Source: Odoribacter sp. (GTDB taxonomy: Bacteria; Bacteroidota; Bacteroidia; Bacteroidales; Prolixibacteraceae). Taken from it: a DNA stretch of 45,268 bases. Under the pieces are notes generated by a model. That model had not been told where the DNA came from, ran no database searches, and saw only the letters and a list, made by a program, of their open reading frames with translations. Shown here in pieces: positions 11,032 through 43,105 of the stretch (position 1 is its first letter; every line of letters starts with the position of its first letter). The stretch lies in NCBI GenBank assembly GCA_013824715.1, contig PNOH01000035.1, positions 1-45,268 of the forward strand. The letters are read 5' to 3'. Made by a program: the position numbers and the translations under genes.

Positions 11032-12597
11032 ATGGCCGGAGAAAGAAAGAATTACCAGCAACAAGCAAAAATGACCATTGAGCAGATTAATGCCCAATAC
11101 GGAAAGATTCCACCCCAGGCTGTTGAAGTGGAAGAAGCCGTACTTGGGGCCCTGATGCTCGAACGCGATGCCTACATTACGGTGGCCGACATCATTGACA
11201 CCAAAAGTTTCTACAAAGAAGAACATCAAAAAATATTTGAGGTCATCAAATACTTATCAACCCACGAAAAGCCGGTTGATTTGCTGATGGTGACACAGGA
11301 GCTGAAAAACAAAAACCTGCTCGACGAAGTGGGTGGCCCACTCATGATCACCCAGTTAACTTCGAGGGTTGCTTCTGCTGCACACATCGAGTTTCACTCG
11401 CGGATCATCGCGCAAAAGTTCATTCAGCGCGAAATGATCCGGGTTTCGACCGAAATCCAGACGAAAGCTTACGACGATGCCATTGATGTGGACGACCTGA
11501 TTGATTTTTCTGAAACAGCGCTTTTCCAGATTGCCGAAGGAAATATCAAGAGAGAAACCATCCCCATCAAAACTTTGCTTCGCGAAGCCGCTGTACTGAT
11601 TGAAGAAGCATCGAAACGGGACGACCACCTGAGCGGTGCGCCCAGCGGATTCACCGCTGTTGACCGCATGACCTCCGGATGGCAAAAAACCGACCTGATC
11701 ATTATCGCAGCCCGCCCTTCGATGGGAAAAACAGCATTCGTTTTATCAATGGCCCGCAACATGGCCGTCGAACACAAAGTACCTGTTGGGGTTTTCTCGC
11801 TCGAAATGTCGTCCATTCAGTTGGTTAACCGTTTGCTGTCTGCCGAAACGGAATTAGGTTCCGATAAAATTAAAAATGGCCGCCTGGTTGGTTGGGAATG
11901 GGACCATTTCCACCGGAAACTGGCTATCCTCGATGATGCGCCCCTGTTTATTGACGATACTCCTGCCCTGTCCATTTTCGAATTCAGGGCGAAATGCCGT
12001 AGGTTAAAGTTACAGCACAATATCGGAGCGGTAATTGTTGATTACCTCCAGTTAATGACTGCCGGAACAGACAGCCGGGGGAGCCGTGAGCAGGAAGTAA
12101 GTATGATTTCGCGTTCACTCAAGGCCATTGCCAAAGAACTCGATATACCTGTCATAGCGCTGTCGCAGTTGAACCGGTCGGTCGAATCGCGCGAAGGTAA
12201 ACGCCCGCAGCTTTCCGACCTCCGCGAATCGGGCGCCATTGAGCAGGATGCCGATATTGTCATATTTATTCACCGTCCGGAATACTACCAAATAACGGAA
12301 GACGAAGATGGTAACTCGCTCATCGGGATAGCCGAAATCATCATTGCCAAACACCGTAACGGGGCTGTTGGCGACGTGAGGCTCTCGTTTAAAAAGAGCC
12401 TTGCCAAATTCGCCGATATGGAAAATATCATTCCTGAAGAAATCGGTGGCGGTCAGTACGGGCAAAAATTGCAATCAAAAATGAATGTTGACTCAGGCGA
12501 TTCTTACCGAAAGGGCGCCATTCCTGTCAATACTTCGTTCGATAACGATAAATTCAGCCATTATGAAAATTCAGGAGGTGAACATATCCCATTCTGA
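11032..12597 (+). CDS. dnaB: Replicative DNA helicase DnaB
   Basis: DnaB is the hexameric helicase that unwinds DNA at the replication fork. The 521-residue protein has the N-terminal primase-interaction domain (about residues 25-130, PPQAVEVEEAVLGALMLERDAY). The C-terminal RecA-like motor carries the Walker A motif ARPSMGKTA at 227-235, a Walker B-like VIVDYLQLM near 340, and the conserved LSQLNRSVESR and SDLRESGAIEQDADIV stretches. There is no intein and no sign of phage origin. The tail after about 480 is polar and variable. The next gene starts inside its last codons. Confidence 0.97.
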   Translation: MAGERKNYQQQAKMTIEQINAQYGKIPPQAVEVEEAVLGALMLERDAYITVADIIDTKSFYKEEHQKIFEVIKYLSTHEKPVDLLMVTQELKNKNLLDEVGGPLMITQLTSRVASAAHIEFHSRIIAQKFIQREMIRVSTEIQTKAYDDAIDVDDLIDFSETALFQIAEGNIKRETIPIKTLLREAAVLIEEASKRDDHLSGAPSGFTAVDRMTSGWQKTDLIIIAARPSMGKTAFVLSMARNMAVEHKVPVGVFSLEMSSIQLVNRLLSAETELGSDKIKNGRLVGWEWDHFHRKLAILDDAPLFIDDTPALSIFEFRAKCRRLKLQHNIGAVIVDYLQLMTAGTDSRGSREQEVSMISRSLKAIAKELDIPVIALSQLNRSVESREGKRPQLSDLRESGAIEQDADIVIFIHRPEYYQITEDEDGNSLIGIAEIIIAKHRNGAVGDVRLSFKKSLAKFADMENIIPEEIGGGQYGQKLQSKMNVDSGDSYRKGAIPVNTSFDNDKFSHYENSGGEHIPF

Positions 12598-13858
12598 CCG
12601 GCGCTCAAAATGGATGCTGTTCCTGATTTTTCTCCTATTCGTCCAAACAGCCCATGCAGCCTTCATTCTCATCCCGATGGATGAAAAACAAGCTAACCAT
12701 TTAAAGGCTTATGGCATTACTTACTGGACGCTTGAACAAGAAATTGAAGTAAAGTGGTTACTTAATTACCGCGGTGGATGTTTTTTGGTTCAGCATCAGC
12801 AGGCGCTGGCAAGCGAGTGTTTGGTCCGTGGGGTCAGTTTCGAAACTTTAGCCGATGGTCAGGCCAATAATCTACTGGCTGATATTGCCCGCGAAGATGT
12901 CAATCAGGATGCGGTAAGCATGCAGAAAGCCCCGAAAATTGCGGTCTATTCGCCTCCCAACAAACAACCCTGGGACGATGCCGTGACCCTGGTTTTAACT
13001 TATGCCGAAATCAAATTTGATGTGATTTACGACGAAGAAATCCTGAATGGCAAACTGAAGGATTATGACTGGCTCCACCTCCACCACGAAGATTTTACCG
13101 GCCAGTTTGGTAAATTTTTTCAGGCCTACCAACATGCCATTTGGTACCAGGAAGAAGTACGGATAAATAAAGAACTCGCACAAAAGATGGGTTTTATGAA
13201 GGTTTCTGAAATGAAACGCGTTATTGCCCGTGAGATTTATCAGTACATCAGCAATGGTGGTTTTCTTTTCGCCATGTGTGCTGCAACCGACACTTACGAC
13301 ATTACCCGTGCTGCCGGTGAAACCGATATTTGCGAGGCGATGTTCGATGGAGATCCTGCCGACCCGACCATGAACGACCACCTTGATTTCGGTCATACCC
13401 TGGCTTTTGAAAATTTTAAAATCAACCGGAATCCATACGAATACAAATTCTCGGATATTGATGTTTCGACCAGCCGCAAGGTTCCACGCGAGCAGGATTA
13501 TTTCACCCTGTTCCAGTTTTCGGCCAAATGGGATCCTGTTCCAACTATGTTATGCCAGAATCATGCAAACATGGTAAAGGGATTTATGGGCCAAACTACC
13601 GCTTACGACCGGAGTTTGGTGAAACCCAATGTTTTGGTGATGGGCGAAAACAAAGCGGCTGGCGAAGCGCGCTACATTCATGGCGAACAAGGCAAAGGTT
13701 TCTGGACTTTCTATGGCGGGCACGATCCAGAAGACTTTCAGCATTTTGTGGGCGATCCGGCTACCGATCTGAATTTGCACCCCAACTCGCCCGGCTACCG
13801 GCTTATCCTGAATAATGTGCTGTTTCCGGCAGCCAAGAAAAAGAAACAGAAGACGTAA
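12563..13858 (+). CDS. Conserved exported protein of Bacteroidota (often labelled asparagine synthetase B)
   Basis: This protein is 431 aa from the ATG at 12563. A long n-region with RRSK is followed by a hydrophobic core (MLFLIFLLF) and a cleavage site after TAHA, so it is probably exported. An ATG at 12614 is an alternative start but would lack positive charges. The mature part begins FILIPMDEKQANHLKAYGITYW and contains WLHLHHEDFTGQFGKFF, FLFAMCAATDTYD and FWTFYGGHDPEDFQH. These stretches resemble a glutamine-amidotransferase-like or flavodoxin-like fold rather than any synthetase. I see neither an N-terminal Cys glutaminase nor an ATP-pyrophosphatase motif, so the common label looks wrong. 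The start overlaps the dnaB end by 35 nt, suggesting coupling. Function is unknown. Confidence 0.8.
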   Translation: MKIQEVNISHSDRRSKWMLFLIFLLFVQTAHAAFILIPMDEKQANHLKAYGITYWTLEQEIEVKWLLNYRGGCFLVQHQQALASECLVRGVSFETLADGQANNLLADIAREDVNQDAVSMQKAPKIAVYSPPNKQPWDDAVTLVLTYAEIKFDVIYDEEILNGKLKDYDWLHLHHEDFTGQFGKFFQAYQHAIWYQEEVRINKELAQKMGFMKVSEMKRVIAREIYQYISNGGFLFAMCAATDTYDITRAAGETDICEAMFDGDPADPTMNDHLDFGHTLAFENFKINRNPYEYKFSDIDVSTSRKVPREQDYFTLFQFSAKWDPVPTMLCQNHANMVKGFMGQTTAYDRSLVKPNVLVMGENKAAGEARYIHGEQGKGFWTFYGGHDPEDFQHFVGDPATDLNLHPNSPGYRLILNNVLFPAAKKKKQKT

Positions 13859-13866
13859 GAAAAACC

Positions 13867-13874
13867 TAACTTTG
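13867..13874 (+). promoter_or_regulatory. -7 element for the restriction-modification cassette
   Basis: TAACTTTG matches TAnnTTTG, 27 nt upstream of the endonuclease start and 9 nt after the previous stop codon. It suggests the cassette carries its own promoter. Confidence 0.5.
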
Positions 13875-13900
13875 ACCAAATAATAAGAACTAAATAAATA

Positions 13901-15349
13901 ATGGCATCATTCAAAACAGACGAGAGCTTTTTAGAGAAAATCTCAATTGGAGCAATTGGGACGCAACAAGTGTTTTCAATCCTTCGACAGCTTGGACATC
14001 AACCTATTGAACTTGAAAGAGGTTCAATGAATTATAAAATTTGGAAGAAGATTAAAATAAAAAGAATCCGTGTACCAGACATTCTTTGCGTTGACAACGG
14101 AATCAGAATTGAATCAAGAGCCAAAACTAATCTTGAGATTTCAATGTCTCATTCAACTTCCGACCCAGAAAGAGGTTGGGATTTTGGAATGAAAGACAGC
14201 GACTATGTTGCTTTAGTAGTTTGTGAAAAGTTTGGCGAAGAACCAATTGATTGGAAAGCCGACAATCTTGTTCAGTTCATTTCTATAAAGGAATTAAGAG
14301 AAGCTGAAAAACAAAACCAAGTTGTTTTCATTAAACCCAAAGGAGCACAAGAAGGTTTTGAAGCAAGAATAAATTGGCCAGCAGGACTTGCGTCGACACA
14401 AGGAAAAGTTACAGAAATTGGTAACACCATCAAATACAAAACCATAGGAGGTAGAACAAATTTCATTCGCTTGACAAAAGGCGGAAAGACACTTACACCA
14501 TTGGTAAAAGTTGGTGACACCGTTTTTCCCAATCAAATTTTAGCTTCAGTAGTTAAAGCTCAACAAACAATTCCAACATCCAAAGTAAACGCTGACTTTT
14601 TCCTTGCCAATCTTTCAAATTTGACGTTGAGTGAAAGGTACGCTGCTGCCAAAGCATTGAGTTACTTTAATGAAAAAAAAGTTGTAACAGCTTTGCTTGC
14701 AAAGCTTGCTGACAATGAAGAACACATTTATGTGAAGTTAGAAGCAGCCGCAAGTTTATCACGCTTCGGAATTGATGACGGCTACAACTTTATCAAGAAT
14801 TGTCTCAAAGACAGTTATTTGCAAAATGTTCTTGAATCTGTAATCGTTCTGGCAGAGATCAAAACCGATATAGCTTGCAAAATGCTTTGCGATATTTTAC
14901 TTGATGAAAACTTTGATGCAGAAATAAGAGCAGGTGCAGCTTGGGGTCTTGGTGAACAACAAAACAAATCTGCTTTGAACGCAGTTGTGACGAGTTTCAA
15001 TTCTGTTGATGAAAACATAAAAATTGAGGCAGCAAGAGCTTTAGCCAAACTCACAAAACATTTCAGCAATGATATTCTCAAAACATTTGAGAAAGCTGCG
15101 CCAATGGAAAAGCCAGGCATTGCGTGGGCTTTGACAAAATCAACAACTCTTAATCTTGACCAACTTGTTTCAAATCTAAAAGATTTGGATTCACGTCATT
15201 GGGTTTCATTCATCATCGGGTCACATGGAGAAGAAAGATACATTGCTGAAATTGAAAAATTGAAGAATAAAGACCCCGAAGTTTATTTTGCAGTGACACT
15301 GCTTTGGAAAATTATGACCAGTTGGATTCACGATATTAAAGAATATTAA
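13901..15349 (+). CDS. Putative type II restriction endonuclease with C-terminal HEAT-like repeats
   Basis: This 482-residue protein lies directly before a DNA methyltransferase. The N-terminal part (about residues 20-130) looks like a PD-(D/E)XK nuclease. VPDILCVDNGIRIESRAK gives Asp60, Glu71 and a basic residue (Arg73 or Lys75) in the expected strand-turn-strand order. Residues about 135-220 form a separate middle region (KPKGAQEGFEARINWPAGL). From about 225 to 470 there are HEAT/ARM-like helical repeats (SERYAAAKALSYF, VKLEAAASLSRFG, EIRAGAAWGLGEQ, IKIEAARALAKL). The base composition is visibly more AT-rich than the flanking genes, which suggests recent gain. The catalytic assignment is inferred from spacing and context. 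It could also act as a multi-subunit or modification-dependent nuclease. Confidence 0.72.
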   Translation: MASFKTDESFLEKISIGAIGTQQVFSILRQLGHQPIELERGSMNYKIWKKIKIKRIRVPDILCVDNGIRIESRAKTNLEISMSHSTSDPERGWDFGMKDSDYVALVVCEKFGEEPIDWKADNLVQFISIKELREAEKQNQVVFIKPKGAQEGFEARINWPAGLASTQGKVTEIGNTIKYKTIGGRTNFIRLTKGGKTLTPLVKVGDTVFPNQILASVVKAQQTIPTSKVNADFFLANLSNLTLSERYAAAKALSYFNEKKVVTALLAKLADNEEHIYVKLEAAASLSRFGIDDGYNFIKNCLKDSYLQNVLESVIVLAEIKTDIACKMLCDILLDENFDAEIRAGAAWGLGEQQNKSALNAVVTSFNSVDENIKIEAARALAKLTKHFSNDILKTFEKAAPMEKPGIAWALTKSTTLNLDQLVSNLKDLDSRHWVSFIIGSHGEERYIAEIEKLKNKDPEVYFAVTLLWKIMTSWIHDIKEY

Positions 15350-15350
15350 T

Positions 15351-16460
15351 ATGTTTGAACAAAACTACTTATACAAGACAAAGAAAGGCAAAGCCGTTGT
15401 TGGTGATTCATTAGAATTGATGAAATCAATACCAGACAATTCAATTAACCTTGTAATGACTTCACCCCCTTTTGCACTTTCACGACCTAAGGAATATGGG
15501 AATAAAGACCAAGCCGATTATATTGACTGGATTTTAAAATTTACAAAAGAAGTAAAGAGAATTATATCAAATGATGGAAGTTTTGTTATTGATTTAGGAG
15601 GAGCCTATCAAAAAGGATCTCCAATTCGTTCTCTGTATAATTTTCGTTTACTAATTAGTATGTGTGATGAGCAAGGATGGAAATTGGCAGAAGAATTCTT
15701 TTGGTATAACCCTGCGAAGCTACCATCACCAATTGAATGGGTAAATAAAAGAAAAATCCGAGTTAAAGATTCAGTAAATACTGTTTGGTGGCTTTCAAAA
15801 TCTGATTTTCCTAAGGCAGATGTAAAGAAGGTTTTGACTGAGTATTCCGACAGAATGAAAAAGTTAATAGATGATAGTGCAAAATACTATACACCAAAGA
15901 AACGACCATCAGGCCACGACATTAGCGATAGTTTCGGTAATGACAATGGAGGAGCAATTCCATCAAATCTATTACAAATACCCAATACTGAAAGTAACTC
16001 ACAATATCTCAAATACTGCAAAGATTTAGAAGTTAAAGGACATCCTGCAAGGTTTCCTTCTAAGTTACCAGAGTTCTTTATTAAGTTTTTAACAGATGAA
16101 GGTGATATAGTTCTTGATATTTTTGCAGGTTCAAACACAACAGGATGGACAGCTCAACAACTTAACAGGAAATGGCTTTCTTTTGAAATCGATCATCAGT
16201 ATTTATCCGCTTCAATTCTTCGTTTCCTAGACAAAGAGCCTTTTGAAGATGTTAGACCAAAATATGAATTATTGCTATTTGACAAAAATGCTAAAATAAA
16301 CGCAGAAGAATTTTTGCTACAGCCACTGCTTTTCGAACCGCAAACACTTTATGCAAGTATATTAGCAAGCACTACAAAGCCACGAAAAGAACAAAACTTG
16401 CAAAAGAGCTTGCTTTTCCCACTCGCAAATGACAATGGATTTTTAAACGACAATATTTAA
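15351..16460 (+). CDS. Site-specific DNA methyltransferase, M.PvuII-like (probably N4-cytosine)
   Basis: This 369-residue modification enzyme protects host DNA from the adjacent endonuclease. The catalytic motif IV TSPPF is at residues 37-41. The SAM-binding motif I, in DIVLDIFAGSNTTGWTAQQL, comes near residues 254-273, so the motif order is IV before I (beta class). The stretch FAGSNTTG...RKWLSFEID...ASILRFLD closely resembles what I recall of M.PvuII, an N4-cytosine enzyme, which favours m4C over m6A. Its start lies 1 nt after the endonuclease stop, so expression is tightly coupled. The gene is AT-rich like its partner. The target sequence cannot be read from the protein. Confidence 0.93.
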   Translation: MFEQNYLYKTKKGKAVVGDSLELMKSIPDNSINLVMTSPPFALSRPKEYGNKDQADYIDWILKFTKEVKRIISNDGSFVIDLGGAYQKGSPIRSLYNFRLLISMCDEQGWKLAEEFFWYNPAKLPSPIEWVNKRKIRVKDSVNTVWWLSKSDFPKADVKKVLTEYSDRMKKLIDDSAKYYTPKKRPSGHDISDSFGNDNGGAIPSNLLQIPNTESNSQYLKYCKDLEVKGHPARFPSKLPEFFIKFLTDEGDIVLDIFAGSNTTGWTAQQLNRKWLSFEIDHQYLSASILRFLDKEPFEDVRPKYELLLFDKNAKINAEEFLLQPLLFEPQTLYASILASTTKPRKEQNLQKSLLFPLANDNGFLNDNI

Positions 16461-16480
16461 GACCTAAAGAAAGGGCGAGT

Positions 16481-16590
16481 GCATAACAATAAACTATCTA
16501 AGTCGGGTTTTGGTGCTATATTGACAGGAAATTAGGATTTTAGTAGTGATGTACAGGATGTTCATCGGTAAAAACCCGCCCTGCGTGTAG
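16481..16590. repeat. Copy 1 of a ~110-bp structured intergenic element after a defence cassette
   Basis: The sequence starts GCATAACAATAAACTA and continues AAGTCGGGTTTTGGTGCTA, then ACAGGAAATTAGGATTTT, then TGTACAGGATGTTCATC, and ends AAAACCCGCCCTGCGTG. It aligns along its whole length with 41102-41215. GGGTTTT near the left and AAAACCC near the right can close a stem around the central part. It sits 20 bp after the methyltransferase stop. The role is unknown: a terminator, a structured RNA, or the recombination end of a gene cassette. Confidence 0.65.
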
Positions 16591-16659
16591 CTACAATCGA
16601 TTTACCTCCATTGGCGGATTTATAAATTTAAAACTGAACTAATCCTAAAAACTAAACCT

Positions 16660-37913: not shown

Positions 37914-38009
37914 GGTTTTTGCCCTAATTATCATGTTCTCGCAGACGGTATTTTTTTTGTTCCTTTTTCACCAGGCGTTGCCTAGGTTTAGATTTATATG
38001 CCTAAACAC

Positions 38010-39638
38010 ATGAACATTCTCTCAAAATCGCTTATTCTGTTATTCGCTATTTCCATTGGCCATATCGGTGTATGTCAAACGAAAATTCCCTTTCTCCAAA
38101 AAAGAGGCAACTCCACTCAATTGATCGTTGATGGCAAACCCTTCATCATACTTGGCGGAGAATTGGGAAACTCATCGGCATCAACCACCCGGTATATGCA
38201 GCCTATCTGGCCTAAACTGAAAACCATGAACCTGAATACCATTTTAGTTCCGGTTTATTGGGAGTTGATTGAAAGCGGGGAAGGTCTTTTTGATTTTTCA
38301 CTGGTTCAGGATATCATTACAGAAGCCCGGCACAACAAGCTGAAAATCGTTTTCCTCTGGTTTGGAACCTGGAAAAACAGCATGTCAAGTCATGCCCCGG
38401 CCTGGGTGAAACTCAATCAGGAGAAGTTTCCAAGGTCAAAAGATCGGTCGGGCAAAAGCCAGGAAATTCTGAGTTCGTTCAGCGATCAGGTACTTCAGGC
38501 TGACAGCAGGGCTTTTGAAAACCTGATGCGTTTCATCAAAAACTTCGATAGCGACCAAAACACAGTCATCATGGTGCAGGTCGAAAATGAAATCGGGATG
38601 CTCCCTTCGGCGAGAGATTATCAGGATTTGGCCAATGAAGCATTCGAAAAAAACGTGCCCGCTGAGCTGATCAATTACCTGAAGCAAAATAAGGAAAAAC
38701 TTGTTCCTGAATTCCTCGAAGTCTGGAAAGCCAATGGTTACAAAACATCGGGCAACTGGGAAGAAATTTTTGGCAAGGGGCTGCACACCGACGAACTGTT
38801 TATGGCGTGGTACTATTCGAGATTTGCCAATCAGGTAGCCGGGGCGGGGAAGAAGATTTACCCGTTGCCCATGTTTGTGAATGCAGCTTTAAACCGGCCC
38901 AATTGGGAACCGGGGAAATACCCGAGCGCCGGGCCGCTTCCTCATATCATGGATATTTGGAAAGCTGCAGGTTCGTCTATTGACTTTCTTGCACCCGATT
39001 TTTACAATCCCGATTTCAAGCATTGGTGCGATTTATATACCCGTCAGGGCGATCCGCTGTTTATACCCGAGCATGCTTTTGATGCTACCGCTCCGGCCAA
39101 AGCGCTTTATGCGTTTGCGCAGTATGATGCTTTAGGGTTTTCGCCATTCTCTGTCGAATCAACCGATAAACCCGCTGATGAGCCACTTGCAAAAATGTAC
39201 GGTTTAATCCGGGAACTGACGCCATTGATCACCGCGAACCAGGGACAGGGAAAAATCAAGGGTGTTTTGGTTTCGAAAGCTACTCCGGAAACCATCATAC
39301 AATTAGGCAAATATGAACTCACCTGCAGGCACGACTATACCCTGAGCTGGACTCCGGGAGCGAAATTGGAGGAATGGCCTTTGGCAAGTGTAATGATAAT
39401 TCAAACAGGTGACGATGAATTTTATGTGGCTGGTTCGGGCGTGGTGATTACTTTCAAACTCCCCGAAAATAAAGACCTGAACGTGGGGCTGCTGAAAGTG
39501 GAAGAAGGCCGCTTTGAAAACAACGAATGGAAAATAACGCGCCACTTAAACGGCGACCAGACGCACCAGGGCCGGCATGTGAGTATTCCGGCTGGCCAGT
39601 TGGCCACCCAAAAAGTGAAACTATATACGTATAAATAA
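38010..39638 (+). CDS. GH35-type beta-galactosidase with C-terminal DUF5597-like domain
   Basis: The protein is 542 aa from the ATG at 38010. An ATG four codons earlier (37998) is equally possible. A signal peptide ends near residue 22 (GHIGVCQ). The barrel starts FIILGGELGNSSASTTRYMQPIWPKLKTMNLNTILVPVYWE and includes GLFDFSLVQDIITEARHNKLKIVFLWFGTWK. The acid/base Glu194 is in VQVENEIG, and the nucleophile Glu354 in LFIPEHAFD. The C-terminal part (about 400-542) has the beta-sandwich look of DUF5597. Homologues act on beta-galactosides of plant or algal polysaccharides. No other carbohydrate gene is directly linked except GH43 4 kb away. Confidence 0.9.
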   Translation: MNILSKSLILLFAISIGHIGVCQTKIPFLQKRGNSTQLIVDGKPFIILGGELGNSSASTTRYMQPIWPKLKTMNLNTILVPVYWELIESGEGLFDFSLVQDIITEARHNKLKIVFLWFGTWKNSMSSHAPAWVKLNQEKFPRSKDRSGKSQEILSSFSDQVLQADSRAFENLMRFIKNFDSDQNTVIMVQVENEIGMLPSARDYQDLANEAFEKNVPAELINYLKQNKEKLVPEFLEVWKANGYKTSGNWEEIFGKGLHTDELFMAWYYSRFANQVAGAGKKIYPLPMFVNAALNRPNWEPGKYPSAGPLPHIMDIWKAAGSSIDFLAPDFYNPDFKHWCDLYTRQGDPLFIPEHAFDATAPAKALYAFAQYDALGFSPFSVESTDKPADEPLAKMYGLIRELTPLITANQGQGKIKGVLVSKATPETIIQLGKYELTCRHDYTLSWTPGAKLEEWPLASVMIIQTGDDEFYVAGSGVVITFKLPENKDLNVGLLKVEEGRFENNEWKITRHLNGDQTHQGRHVSIPAGQLATQKVKLYTYK

Positions 39639-39762
39639 GGGACAAAGAAGAACCTGAAAAATGCCTTCAGTGATGTAAAAAGATTGGATTGCCATGATTT
39701 CGGCGAAGATGCCGTATTGCAACTGGGTTTTCTCTCTCACTAAAAAACAGTTAACCAAAAGC

Positions 39763-39793
39763 TTGACTTCAAATCCAATTTTCCATACCTTTG
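39763..39793 (+). promoter_or_regulatory. Full Bacteroidota promoter in front of a 50-codon ORF
   Basis: TTG at 39763-39765, a 20-nt spacer, then TACCTTTG at 39786-39793 is an excellent match to the consensus. It lies 29 nt before an ATG. From 39639 to 39762 I see nothing else. Confidence 0.6.
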
Positions 39794-39822
39794 AGAAAAC
39801 CAAACCGCTAAATCCCCAAAAA

Positions 39823-39975
39823 ATGCAGCTAACCACTTCGAGAGATTCCCTAAAAAATAATTACTATTTAGAATTTAAGCGGATAAGCAGTTCGGGTAAA
39901 GCAAAAATATTCGCAGTTGGCTGTTATTCAAATGTTAGCGGCAAGCTTAACAAAGAGAGATTCGTTTCAAATTAG
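39823..39975 (+). pseudogene. 50-codon ORF cut short by the TIR cassette (possible gene remnant)
   Basis: The frame reads MQLTTSRDSLKNNYYLEFKR and continues ISSSGKAKIFAVGCYS before ending in SN. It follows a full promoter, so it looks like the 5' end of a real gene. From about 39930 the DNA (ATGTTAGCGGCAAGCTTAAC) resembles a cassette edge. I do not recognise the protein. It may also be a genuine small gene. Confidence 0.35.
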
Positions 39976-40049
39976 CAATTATCTTGACAAATAATAATTT
40001 TGAAAAGGGACAACTAAATACGATTATTCATATTTATTAAAATAGAACT

Positions 40050-41058
40050 TTGAAAATATTTATTTCACACTCATCAGTAGATGCAGCATTCGGTAATACT
40101 CTTGTGAACCTATTAACAGGAGTGGGTATTAGAGATAATGAAGTTATTTTTACAAGTAATGTTGCCTATGGAATCCCATTAGGGAAAAGTATTTTTGATT
40201 GGTTGAAAAATCAAATCAAAGAAAAACCCTATGTAATATATTTATTATCACCTTCATATTATTCGAGTGTAGCATGTCTAAATGAAATGGGAGCTGCTTG
40301 GATTGTAGAAAATGACCATACAATTGTATTCACACCTGATTTTAAAATTAATAGTCCAGAGTTTCAAAACGGAGCCCTAGGAGCCTAGGGAAATCGGATT
40401 TTTTATAAATAATGAAGAGAGACTTTTGTCATTTATAGAGTTGTTAAGAAACTCGTTTGACATTTCAAATAATGTAGTTTTAATAAATCAAAAAGTAAAA
40501 GAGTTTCTAAAAAACATTTCTAATATCAAGCCTCCTGAACCTACAAAAGTTGAAACTAAGTCAATTGTTTCATATGCTGAAAATAGTGTTGTATTAACAG
40601 AAGCCGTTGTTGAGATTAAACCGTCAACACAAAGTGTAGTTACTATAGACACGATTGAAAAAGAAACTAAAAAATCTGGATATTATACAAGATTCCTTTC
40701 TGACATATATGAAAGAAAACTATCAAGCGAGGAATTACTTTTATTACACTACATTATAGACACAGCAAAGGTAAAATTAGGAACAGGATGGCAAGAAGAT
40801 TCTGAAATTCGGAATATAGTGGAGTGGGAAGAAATTAGAGGATTAAATAGCACATTGTCGAGAAGTTATAGTGCAGTAATAAGAAGATTCGGACTACGAA
40901 AATATACTGAGGTATCAGCATATACGGGTTCAGGAAATCCCAAAGAAGTTTGCCTAAGTGAAGATATCCAAGACAGATTACTCGACTTTCCACAAGAATT
41001 ATTAACCATAATTGACGAATCAGTTAAGAGTAATTTGAAAGATATGAATCCATTTTAA
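40050..41058 (+). pseudogene. TIR-domain protein gene split by a one-base frameshift
   Basis: The 5' frame (TTG start at 40050, 112 codons, stop at 40386) encodes a TIR domain: MKIFISHSSVDAAFGNTLVN, then SPSYYSSVACLNEMGAAW with the putative catalytic Glu79 of NAD-cleaving TIRs. It ends SPEFQNGALGA. The +1 frame then continues EPREIGFFINNEERLLSFIE to the stop at 41056-41058. Removing one G at 40380-40381 (CTAGGAG to CTAGAG) restores GALEPREIGFF, as I expect for homologues. The joined protein would be about 335 aa, with a helical C-terminal part (SGYYTRFLSDIYERKLSSEELLLLHYI). The cause is either a real mutation or a sequencing error. TIR proteins of this kind are linked to phage defence. Confidence 0.8.
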
Positions 41059-41101
41059 TTTTTTTCACTCTGAGGTTATTCAGAAAAAAAAGAAGCCGGC
41101 C

Positions 41102-41215
41102 GCAAACAGCAAACTACCCGGCAAGTCGGGTTTCCGTGCTTGATTTACAGGAAAATAGGATTTTGAAAAGCAGCACTTTGTAGGAAATTCATCTGTTAAA
41201 TCCCGTCGCGAGTGC
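41102..41215. repeat. Copy 2 of the ~110-bp structured element, after the TIR gene
   Basis: It starts GCAAACAGCAAACTACCCGG and continues AAGTCGGGTTTCCGTGCTTG, TTACAGGAAAATAGGATTTT and TTTGTAGGAAATTCATCTG, ending AAATCCCGTCGCGAGTG. It aligns with 16481-16590 over the full length. CGGGTTT and AAATCCCG at the ends can form the same closing stem. It starts 43 bp after the TIR stop and is followed by AACGACGTTGGCAAAC and then the HigB/HigA genes. Confidence 0.65.
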
Positions 41216-41293
41216 AGTTTTGGAACGACGTTGGCAAACATATTAGGAATCATCTCTTCTACAAATAAAGTTCCCAAATTGAGAATTATCTAT

Positions 41294-41301
41294 TATCTTT
41301 G
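41294..41301 (+). promoter_or_regulatory. -7 element for higBA
   Basis: TATCTTTG matches TAnnTTTG, 18 nt upstream of the HigB ATG. A TTG at 41279-41281 is 12 nt further up, closer than the usual 19-21. Confidence 0.55.
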
Positions 41302-41319
41302 CATCAAGACTAAAATTAA

Positions 41320-41616
41320 ATGGAGAGAATATTTGCAAAGAGTACTTTGAGAGAGTATTGGGAGAAGTACCCCGACACAGAGCAGTATTTAAAAACTTGG
41401 TATGATACAGCAATGAGTTCGGATTGGAAAACTCCCGCAGATGCCAAAAAGACATATGCAAATGCAAGTATCTTAAAGGACAGTAGGATAGTCTTTAATA
41501 TCAAGGGCAATTCGTATAGATTAGTAATTAAATTTCACTTTGAGAAACAATGGATTTTTATTCGTTTCATTGGGACTCATGCAGAGTATGATAAGATTGA
41601 TGCAAATACTATTTAA
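41320..41616 (+). CDS. higB: HigB-family mRNA-cleaving toxin
   Basis: This 98-residue basic protein belongs to the HigB_toxin family of ribosome-dependent mRNA interferases with a RelE-like fold. Characteristic stretches are STLREYWEKYPDTEQYLKTWYDTA, DWKTPADAKKTYANASILKDSRIVFNIKGNSYRLVIKFHFEKQWIFIRFIGTHAEYDKID. IKGNSYRLVIKF and FIGTHAEYDKI are the conserved core. The toxin precedes the antitoxin, as is typical for HigBA, with 11 nt between them. The gene has its own -7 element. It is more AT-rich than the surrounding housekeeping genes. Confidence 0.95.
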   Translation: MERIFAKSTLREYWEKYPDTEQYLKTWYDTAMSSDWKTPADAKKTYANASILKDSRIVFNIKGNSYRLVIKFHFEKQWIFIRFIGTHAEYDKIDANTI

Positions 41617-41627
41617 TAATTACAGAC

Positions 41628-41996
41628 ATGACAATTAAACCTATAAAAACAGAGTCTGATTACAGATTAGCGCTAAAAAGATTGGAAGAAATCTTTGACG
41701 CAGCAATTGGAACTGAGGAAAGCGACGAGGCTGATGTACTAGGATTATTGGTCGATGAACATGAGAAAAAACATTTTCCTATTGAGCCACCTGACCCAAT
41801 TGAGGCGATTAAAATACGAATGGAAGATATGCATTTAAAGCAAGTTGACTTGGTAGAAGCTATTGGAGGAAAGAGCAGAGTTTCCGAGATACTTAACCGA
41901 AAACGCAAATTGACCGTAGAGATGATACGCGAATTGACAAATAAGTTAAATATTTCACCTAGGGTATTAATAAAAGATTACAAATTGACGCTTTAG
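41628..41996 (+). CDS. higA: HigA-family antitoxin with HTH domain
   Basis: This 122-residue partner of HigB binds the toxin and represses the operon promoter. The N-terminal part (SDYRLALKRLEEIFDAAIGTEESDEADVLGLLVDEHEKKHFPI, about residues 10-52) is the HigA signature region. An XRE-type helix-turn-helix lies at about 60-112 (IRMEDMHLKQVDLVEAIGGKSRVSEILNRKRKLTVEMIRELTNKL). It starts 11 nt after higB. From its stop to 42121 there is 125 bp with two direct copies of GCCAGTTAA (42032 and 42045) but no gene. Confidence 0.95.
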   Translation: MTIKPIKTESDYRLALKRLEEIFDAAIGTEESDEADVLGLLVDEHEKKHFPIEPPDPIEAIKIRMEDMHLKQVDLVEAIGGKSRVSEILNRKRKLTVEMIRELTNKLNISPRVLIKDYKLTL

Positions 41997-42121
41997 GAAA
42001 ACACGATTTCCCAATCGAGTAGTCCGCCCTCGCCAGTTAACCTGCCAGTTAAGGCCTTTAAAAAATGTGACAATTTTTTACACGTTTAAAACATGACTTC
42101 AGTACTGAAAATCTAAAAACC

Positions 42122-43105
42122 ATGAATAGTCAATCAGAAATATTGTTTTATACCGCCGATGATGGCAAAACTAAACTTCAGGTTAGACTTGAAGACGATA
42201 CAGTTTGGCTGACACAGAAACAAATTGCCGAATTGTTTGACAAAGGCAGGGTAACAATTACAGAACACATTAAAAATGTTTTTACTGAAGGGGAATTAAA
42301 TGAAGATTCAGTATGTCGGAAATTCCGACATACTGCCGACGATGGCAAGATTTATGATACACAATATTATAACCTCGATGTAATTATCTCTGTCGGTTAT
42401 CGTGTAAAATCGCAAAGAGGCACGCAGTTTCGTATATGGGCAACACAACGGCTAAAGGAGTACATCGTAAAAGGCTTTGCGTTGGACGATGAACGATTAA
42501 AGCAAGGAGGTAAAAATTCACGCTATTTTCAGGAGTTGCTTCAACGCATCCGGGATATCCGAAGCAGTGAGCGGAATTTTTACCAACAGGTGACCGATAT
42601 TTACGCAACCAGTACCGACTACAATCCCAAAAATGAATTGACTCAAAAATTCTTTGCAACCGTGCAAAACAAAATGCATTATGCTGTACACGGTCAAACG
42701 GCTGCCGAATTGATAAATAATCGCGCCGACAGTACAAAACCATTGATGGGATTGGTAAACTTTAAAGGCGATTATATAACAGCTCAAGATGTAAAAATAG
42801 CAAAGAACTACCTGACAGAGAAGGAACTCAATCAACTGAACCTAATCGTGTCACTTTATCTTGATTTTGCCGAGTTGCAAGCTTCAAATGAACGACCTAT
42901 GAAAATGGCCGAGTGGATCGCAAAACTTGATCAGTTTTTGTCATTAAGCGAAAAAGAGCTATTGCAAAATGCAGGTAAAGTAAGAGCAGAAGAAGCAGCA
43001 AGGAAGGCTGGTGATGAATTTGAAAAATACAGGGCAGACCGACTAAAAAATCATATTTCCGATTTTGACAAAGCAGTCAAGGCACTTGAAAACAAAAACA
43101 AATAA
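42122..43105 (+). CDS. RhuM-family protein
   Basis: This 327-residue protein has a RhuM (virulence protein RhuM) domain over most of its length. It begins EILFYTADDGKTKLQVRLEDDTVWLTQKQIAELFDKGRVTITEHI, a winged-helix-like start. It continues YYNLDVIISVGYRVKSQRGTQFRIWATQRLKEYIVKGFALDDERL, which is the family hallmark, and the tail (about 250-327) is helical. RhuM proteins lie in genomic islands and near restriction or toxin systems, and their molecular role is unclear. It lies next to HigBA. A 27-bp near-perfect palindrome falls inside it at 42309-42335. Confidence 0.92.
   Translation: MNSQSEILFYTADDGKTKLQVRLEDDTVWLTQKQIAELFDKGRVTITEHIKNVFTEGELNEDSVCRKFRHTADDGKIYDTQYYNLDVIISVGYRVKSQRGTQFRIWATQRLKEYIVKGFALDDERLKQGGKNSRYFQELLQRIRDIRSSERNFYQQVTDIYATSTDYNPKNELTQKFFATVQNKMHYAVHGQTAAELINNRADSTKPLMGLVNFKGDYITAQDVKIAKNYLTEKELNQLNLIVSLYLDFAELQASNERPMKMAEWIAKLDQFLSLSEKELLQNAGKVRAEEAARKAGDEFEKYRADRLKNHISDFDKAVKALENKNK
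42309..42335. repeat. 27-bp palindrome inside the RhuM gene
   Basis: CAGTATGTCGGAA and TTCCGACATACTG are perfect 13-bp arms around one central base, encoding SVCRKFRHTA. This could be a binding site for the protein itself or a fold-back element in the mRNA. Confidence 0.7.

Follow-up and report, generated by a model that had tools for sequence, protein, structure and literature searches.

Probable integron-type attC sites in a Bacteroidia genus and a candidate integrase platform without the I2 domain

The window analyzed in this work is a 45,268-nucleotide stretch of contig PNOH01000035.1 from an Odoribacter sp. genome (GCA_013824715.1; here G000, 4.6 Mb in 85 contigs). Two segments within it, one carrying a DNA methylase gene and the other a TIR gene, are each followed by a copy of the same structured element, which raises the question of what this element is and how it came to stand behind different genes. 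Our answer, which we regard as highly probable, is that the elements are integron-type attC sites, that in this genus a complete integron gathers the cassettes, served not by a canonical IntI but by an I2-less tyrosine recombinase with an N-terminal extension (alpha), and that the sites in G000 are solo and partly decayed.

The window elements and their site family

A first-pass annotation had reported that the two stretches align, and the likeness proved real. With 16470-16600 as the query, G000 gave a dispersed copy at E = 1.3e-8, the second window copy at 2.9e-7 (73%, record span 83 bp) and others besides; these values place the similarity well beyond chance. All blocks named in the annotation are present in both stretches. 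The size it gave, about 110 bp, was too small for the element, which runs from R'' through R' with true limits of about 16479-16605 and 41099-41236. Site 1 (16479-16605, forward strand) consists of R'' GTGCATAAC at 16479-16487, a core at 16500-16592 and R' G|ATTTAC from 16599, and site 2 (41099-41236, forward strand) of R'' GCCGCAAAC at 41099-41107, a core at 41123-41220 and R' G|TTGGCA from 41230. The R' of site 1 reads GAT instead of GTT and its L box is poor; site 2 has GTT at R'. Scored with covariance model R1, which was built from 27 copies including these two, site 1 reaches 80 bits (E 6e-21) and site 2 reaches 107.7 bits (E 1.2e-29).

At E <= 0.001, model R1 finds 12 sites in G000 and has sites in 21 of the 23 genomes of the genus; model R2, for a sister type, adds 3 more sites in G000 at 1e-6 and has sites in 14/295 genomes of the class, G000 included. 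The attC layout, with R'' RYYYAAC and R' GTTRRRY ends and paired L''/L' boxes, is found in most but not all copies of the family. Several of the 12 R1 sites in G000 are truncated or lack GTT, and the recombinases of this genome are XerC/XerD-like and distant ones only, with no integrase of the alpha type, so the window copies are best called solo attCs. G000 falls outside the IntegronFinder 2 rule for a CALIN, given in the cited portion of PMC9024848 as at least two clustered attC sites and no integrase: the window sites lie 24.6 kb apart, and the only close pair among the R1 sites is on contig C74, with 954 bp between starts.

The first and last blocks, CGGGTTT and AAA(A/T)CCCG, can pair as the annotation had proposed, but the minimum-energy folds of both window copies leave the outermost ends unpaired; in folds of the bottom strands of two relatives' copies, the outer ends are paired. 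Compensatory changes, which had been suggested as a check on folded aligned copies, did not appear, the RNAalifold consensus of 25 copies having 8 pairs with 0 changed on both sides. On 27 copies the named structure has 78.1% of cells paired against 78.3% when shuffled, although slid versions of it have only 30-55% of cells paired; covariation does not rise above shuffles. A dinucleotide test of L''/L' on 30 copies gave 1.67/2 pairs against a shuffled mean of 1.20, a value that the best of 5000 shuffles ties. The covariation result, the tie in the L-box test and the unpaired outer ends of the window folds are counted here against use of the sites in folded form.

Cassette arrays and the candidate integrase alpha in relatives

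The single 5.7-Mb contig of the relative G012 carries 20 elements between 5,456,029 and 5,483,742, head to tail and all on the same strand. Each has the integron attC layout, with R'' (RYYYAAC) and then an L'' box at one end, an L' box and then R' (GTTRRRY) at the other, and a variable interior between them. The start and end of a cassette are expected to be complementary, because in the circular form both belong to one attC. Cassettes under 3.5 kb in four arrays of G012, G018 and G019 were used for this test: 34 of 43 start with the exact reverse complement of their own end (6/6 positions beyond GTT/AAC), and the mean of 5.42 of 6 compares with a mean of 2.94 and a maximum of 3.67 in 5000 shuffles, some of the 43 being identical copies and hence not all independent. 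Among the 9 misses, 2 (one cassette in two copies) come from a wrong AAC chosen by the script and 3 are copies of a single cassette that reaches 5/6; a 7.6-kb cassette, also 6/6, was left out by the length limit. The fifth array locus (G006) has one site and no cassette.

A model-free chain search was carried out on 10 alpha, 17 beta (other I2-less recombinases), 14 other-recombinase, 1 canonical-IntI and 15 control loci, with 20 block shuffles each. Chains of 10, 9, 5 and 5 cassettes were found in alpha loci L122, L124, L043 and L042 (the last two being one array), against a maximum of 2 both in the 14 other-recombinase loci and in the control loci, which at 5.0-5.9 kb are shorter than most integrase loci. 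L123 has a chain of 3 (shuffle maximum 2), and the result is not above shuffles for L126, L128, L175 and L171 with 1 each and L172 with 2; most alpha loci with chains of 1 to 3 hold little sequence 3' of the integrase, and L175 has 2.4 kb and no array. Cassettes that are 100% identical at separate places form six groups (13/48 cassettes), which suggests recent shuffling.

Four arrays are headed by alpha, a tyrosine recombinase of 578 or 579 aa encoded on the same strand as the cassettes. Its residues R, K, H, R, H and Y, which we take to be catalytic, are invariant. The best NCBIfam match of alpha is the integron integrase family TIGR02249 (234 bits, below the cut-off of 265), and its best solved relative by sequence is VchIntIA (2A3V, 3.2e-48), with about residues 175 to 245 of 2A3V unmatched; Foldseek with the alpha model places XerA (2.1e-12) and IntI4 2A3V (2.3e-12) together on top. 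The N-terminus, about 280 extra residues, is modeled at modest quality (pLDDT 71.6, pTM 0.34) as three modules of strands and helices, and this part has a sub-threshold match to DUF5710. Relatives of the catalytic part were also seen on viral contigs (96, of which 80 were kept as L227-L306), mostly 28-41% identical. A plasmid search gave no match at E <= 1e-60, and a phage search gave 12 records at 1e-20, none with 80% coverage. Other tyrosine recombinases account for 14 matched stretches in G012; alpha, one of several in that genome, scores highest and is the best placed, adjoining the array.

A conserved segment like AAAGTACCATATATTTGGTGGTATATACTA|GTT, ending TA|GTT, lies 42-274 bases past the integrase stop in 9/9 alpha loci that have sequence there; the alpha loci of G007 and G009 end at or just past the gene and stand outside this count. 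In 8/9 loci the sequences visibly give way to different cassettes at A|GTT, and the contig of G022 stops at GTT. We take this segment 3' of alpha as a candidate attI. Start and end of the first cassette agree fully in G012, G018 and G019 (C73), and at 8/9 positions in G019 (C104); the first attC of C104 represents a third type, which carries a GGATAC/GTATCC box. An array with a matching first-cassette end is present in 4 of the 5 alpha loci having more than 2 kb of sequence; in G015 the 2.4 kb past the alpha gene hold the attI-like segment, but neither a model site nor a matching cassette end was found there. Placement of an attI-like segment beside the integrase, with the first cassette joined at G|TT, is a feature of an integron platform, and it is found at the alpha loci.

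The attC-type reading already offered in the annotation is supported by the RYYYAAC ... GTTRRRY ends, the complementary cassette ends, the duplicated cassettes and, in relatives, the integrase and attI-like segment heading four arrays. The mobile RNA ends it had named as an alternative fared worse. The elements come after genes and fold, as would transcription terminators, REP-like repeats or mobile RNA ends that are not recombination sites; the window, however, has 0 Rfam matches at gathering scores, the cassette ends are complementary and arranged in arrays, and the attI-like segment and the attC sites have a common junction point, G|TT. On these grounds we reject a terminator, REP or RNA element as extremely improbable.

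The spacing from KDR to HxLRH, measured by alignment, is exactly 100 residues in 14/14 canonical IntIs of this phylum (15 picked from 30 loci, minus one fragment) and 59 in all 7 alpha measured; across 38 other recombinases, alpha included, it is 53 to 66 (L164 has no second motif). The stretch absent from alpha is the IntI-specific additional domain (I2). In a tree of 52 recombinases, the IntI clade (100/100) and the alpha clade (100/99) are separate, and the tree does not settle whether they are sisters. Alpha shows neither mark of a canonical IntI, these being the additional domain with its I2 helix and a place within the IntI clade. Judged by sequence, the alpha platform would act like an integron in its layout and fall outside the canonical kind under the IntI definition.

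We think it quite unlikely that the arrays were built by an ordinary integron, its canonical IntI lost or acting in trans and the neighboring alpha unrelated. In a sample of 296 genomes from the phylum, canonical IntI over the cut-off does occur in 84 (83 labelled same phylum, 1 same class; loci L181-L210), and the cited portion of PMC7790495 describes I2 as necessary for cassette capture and as conferring single-strand recombination, its acquisition being the step from which integron integrases arose. However, an IntI over the cut-off was found in only 1/41 genomes (G000 and 40 relatives), namely G031, outside the genus, and none in single-contig G012; in 9/9 loci alpha is followed by the conserved segment, which reaches up to the junction with the first cassette, and the identical cassette copies suggest recent activity. 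The canonical-type IntI of G031 (C50, L048) has an open frame that looks altered towards its C-terminus.

Less remote, though still unlikely in our estimate, is that alpha moves cassettes by ordinary double-strand recombination and that the inverted-repeat form of attC is merely inherited. Alpha is without the I2 helix that docks extrahelical bases in the mechanism outlined in the cited part of PMC7790495, and no extra base is obvious in the AGCTAC/GTAGCT box of the attC subtype that is common in alpha arrays. Double-strand use would, however, have no need of the match between R'' and R' over 6 variable positions beyond AAC/GTT. Since R'' and R' stay complementary through these variable letters, attC is probably used folded.

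The beta group comprises other I2-less recombinases, of 271 to 543 aa, and attC-like sites lie within about 3 kb of them in L070, L169, L170, L141, L173, L162 and L139. In a survey of 46 loci at E <= 0.1, 12/17 beta loci have a model site and 5/17 none; because 5/14 loci of other recombinase types (L164, L178, L150, L180 and L147) have one as well, nearness of a site alone is no proof of its use by a recombinase. In the chain search, the 17 beta loci have a maximum of 3, reached by shuffles too, and the linkage of beta to attC-like sites is a weak lead. L173 (about 9674, minus strand) and L162 (near 5460) have a divergent, classical layout and share a TATAGGTAYTC|GTT segment; a 271-aa integrase without I2 or N-terminal extension, divergent from attC-like sites as at these two loci, is a possible minimal integron. 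In L139 (9983-16764, from a Chitinophagales MAG), a 406-aa I2-less integrase occurs with long-armed attC-like sites, and one cassette has the matching ends GTTAGGCGTA / TACGCCTAAC. We consider it an even call whether several I2-less tyrosine recombinase lineages, among them the 578-aa clade, which has three N-terminal modules, and others as short as about 271 aa, run integrons in Bacteroidia; were this so, folded single-stranded attC recombination would have no need of I2, and would have arisen more than once or predate I2.

Putative cassettes and cargo at the window loci

The DNA ending in site 1 appears to be a cassette or inserted segment at 13859-16598 (forward strand, left end approximate), with a HEAT-repeat protein gene (13901-15349) and a type II-like DNA methyltransferase gene (15351-16460, forward strand; PF01555 1.6e-42, PADLOC MTase_II 1.1e-154) whose stop codon lies 18 bp before R''. 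Near 13859, GC drops from about 0.45-0.50 to 0.35, and identity with each of 18 compared relatives stops at 13858-13863. A conserved gene at 12563-13858, overlapping the dnaB end, is present in 19/23 genomes of the genus, G000 included. In the 18 relatives compared, the DNA 3' of this gene is unlike that of the window (three of the stretches are short, 0.6 to 3.4 kb, owing to contig ends), and the spot after 13858 is variable in the genus. The search for an empty site, proposed in the annotation, gave no clean one for the methylase segment among these 18 relatives, and the genes 3' of the segment are located elsewhere in five relatives searched.

The DNA ending in site 2 is a putative cassette at 39934-41229 (forward strand), which starts GTTAGCGGC and holds an SpbK-like TIR gene (40050-41058, forward strand). 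The start at 39934 agrees with the reverse complement of R'' at 8/9 positions, where 0.21 such matches are expected by chance among 28 GTT candidates; it is suggestive only and could be chance. The TIR gene is in two open frames, 40050-40388 (PADLOC spbK 9.9e-46) and 40426-41058 (no match), and may be broken or misassembled. Description of the two segments as unrelated defence cassettes was roughly right, as one holds the methylase and HEAT-repeat protein and the other the SpbK-like TIR gene, but no restriction enzyme was identified in the first. A HigB-like toxin gene (41320-41616) and an HTH antitoxin gene (41628-41996) follow 3' of site 2 (together 41320-41996, forward strand; PADLOC PD-Lambda-2 A and B), with no matching cassette end seen after the pair. 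A RhuM gene scoring as PDC-S05 lies 3' of this pair, all just past site 2 (window 41320-43105).

The annotation had named the lack of any gain or loss of adjacent genes between related strains as a finding against its proposal, and the TIR locus bears on this point. There the flanks of the window recur in G010, the closest relative, whereas the cargo between them differs and comes with a different attC of the family. The exchange region is 39689-42056; G010 shares the left flank at 37986-39688, and the right flank at 42057-42112 and again from 42109 to at least 42620. The G010 gene before that attC is probably an AIPR protein, seen once among 47 cargo genes scanned.

Under the integron reading, the alpha integrase would recombine the folded single-stranded attC of a circular cassette, with R''/R' and L''/L' paired, and the partner site would be attI at A|GTT or a chromosomal GWT secondary site. 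Junctions at secondary sites follow a GWT rule. Window site 1 may be such a secondary-site insertion, since its junction reads G|ATT. G000 would then have lost such an integrase, and the methylase cassette (junction G|ATT, attG-like) and the TIR cassette (junction G|TT) would have come to rest at solo attCs.

The window copies could instead have been moved by homologous recombination or together with defence islands, attC being passive there, a prospect that we hold to be appreciable if short of even. G000 is without an integrase, several of its sites are decayed, and the exchange at the TIR locus covers several genes. Passive movement is compatible with an integron origin, but does not account for sites of one family at the end of different cargo in the two genomes. 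Against the integron reading itself we count the lack of an integrase in G000, the methylase segment for which no clean empty site was found, the TIR cassette start that is possibly chance, G015 without an array, the presence of sites near other recombinases and beta chains that do not exceed shuffles. The covariation, L-box and folding results given above, the other tyrosine recombinases of G012 and the modest quality of the alpha model weigh on the same side.

Among the 30 distinct genes of the alpha arrays, Pfam matches include VCH_CASS14 (one gene; the family is named from Vibrio cassettes), TIR effector, SIR2-like, HNH, HSDR_N, barstar, Gp49, thioredoxin and peptidase S41, and PADLOC names several defence families. 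In a wider cargo scan, 68 sites found by pattern in the analyzed loci gave 47 distinct upstream genes. PADLOC assigns at least 6 system names to these 47 (best 25 of 97 families) and a single name (2/43) to 43 control genes; other accessory functions are common among the site-adjoining genes. The annotation had proposed a check for defence enrichment, and no enrichment is claimed here: the cargo is mixed accessory, with defence well represented.

Relation to known integrons and recombinases

A complete integron in Bacteroidetes proper, that of Salinibacter, is given by IntegronFinder 2 in the cited portion of PMC9024848. Archaeal IntIs carry the unique additional domain according to the excerpt of PMC9668308, and the quoted passage of PMC8138268 calls the insertion "not fully conserved" in an integron-like subgroup; parts of PMC8618304, PMC2426708 and PMC11023631 served as further literature. 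In the open PMC papers searched, no report of an I2-less integron integrase, of attC arrays with one or of integrons of this lineage was found. The claim that I2 is necessary becomes directly testable with a platform in which integrase, attI and attC array occur together and I2 is absent. If the reading is true, Bacteroidia integrons could escape surveys in which the additional domain is the defining mark, and be called attC clusters without an integrase, and both window elements would be explained as cassette scars. A cassette-collecting machine without I2 could change the view of how integrons work.

Sedentary chromosomal integrons are alike in their one-strand arrays, RYYYAAC/GTTRRRY ends, cassette-end complementarity and attI-like segment beside the integrase, and also in accessory, toxin-antitoxin-like and defence-type cargo with one VCH_CASS14 gene. 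They differ in the integrase, as alpha is without the additional domain (59 vs 100 residues), forms a separate clade, has about 280 extra N-terminal residues and reads in the same direction as its cassettes. CALINs and solo attCs share with G000 the occurrence of attC sites without an integrase, but the sites in G000 are mostly single.

Insertions at attG secondary sites were reportedly described by Loot et al. 2024. Window site 1 resembles them in ending G|ATT, a GWT-type junction, but differs in that no empty site was found for it. Xer-only modules were considered as an explanation and rejected. XerA, XerC and XerD are like alpha in being without I2, and XerA and IntI4 2A3V stand together on top in Foldseek; in contrast to these Xer recombinases, alpha lies beside a candidate attI and cassette arrays and has TIGR02249 as its best NCBIfam match.
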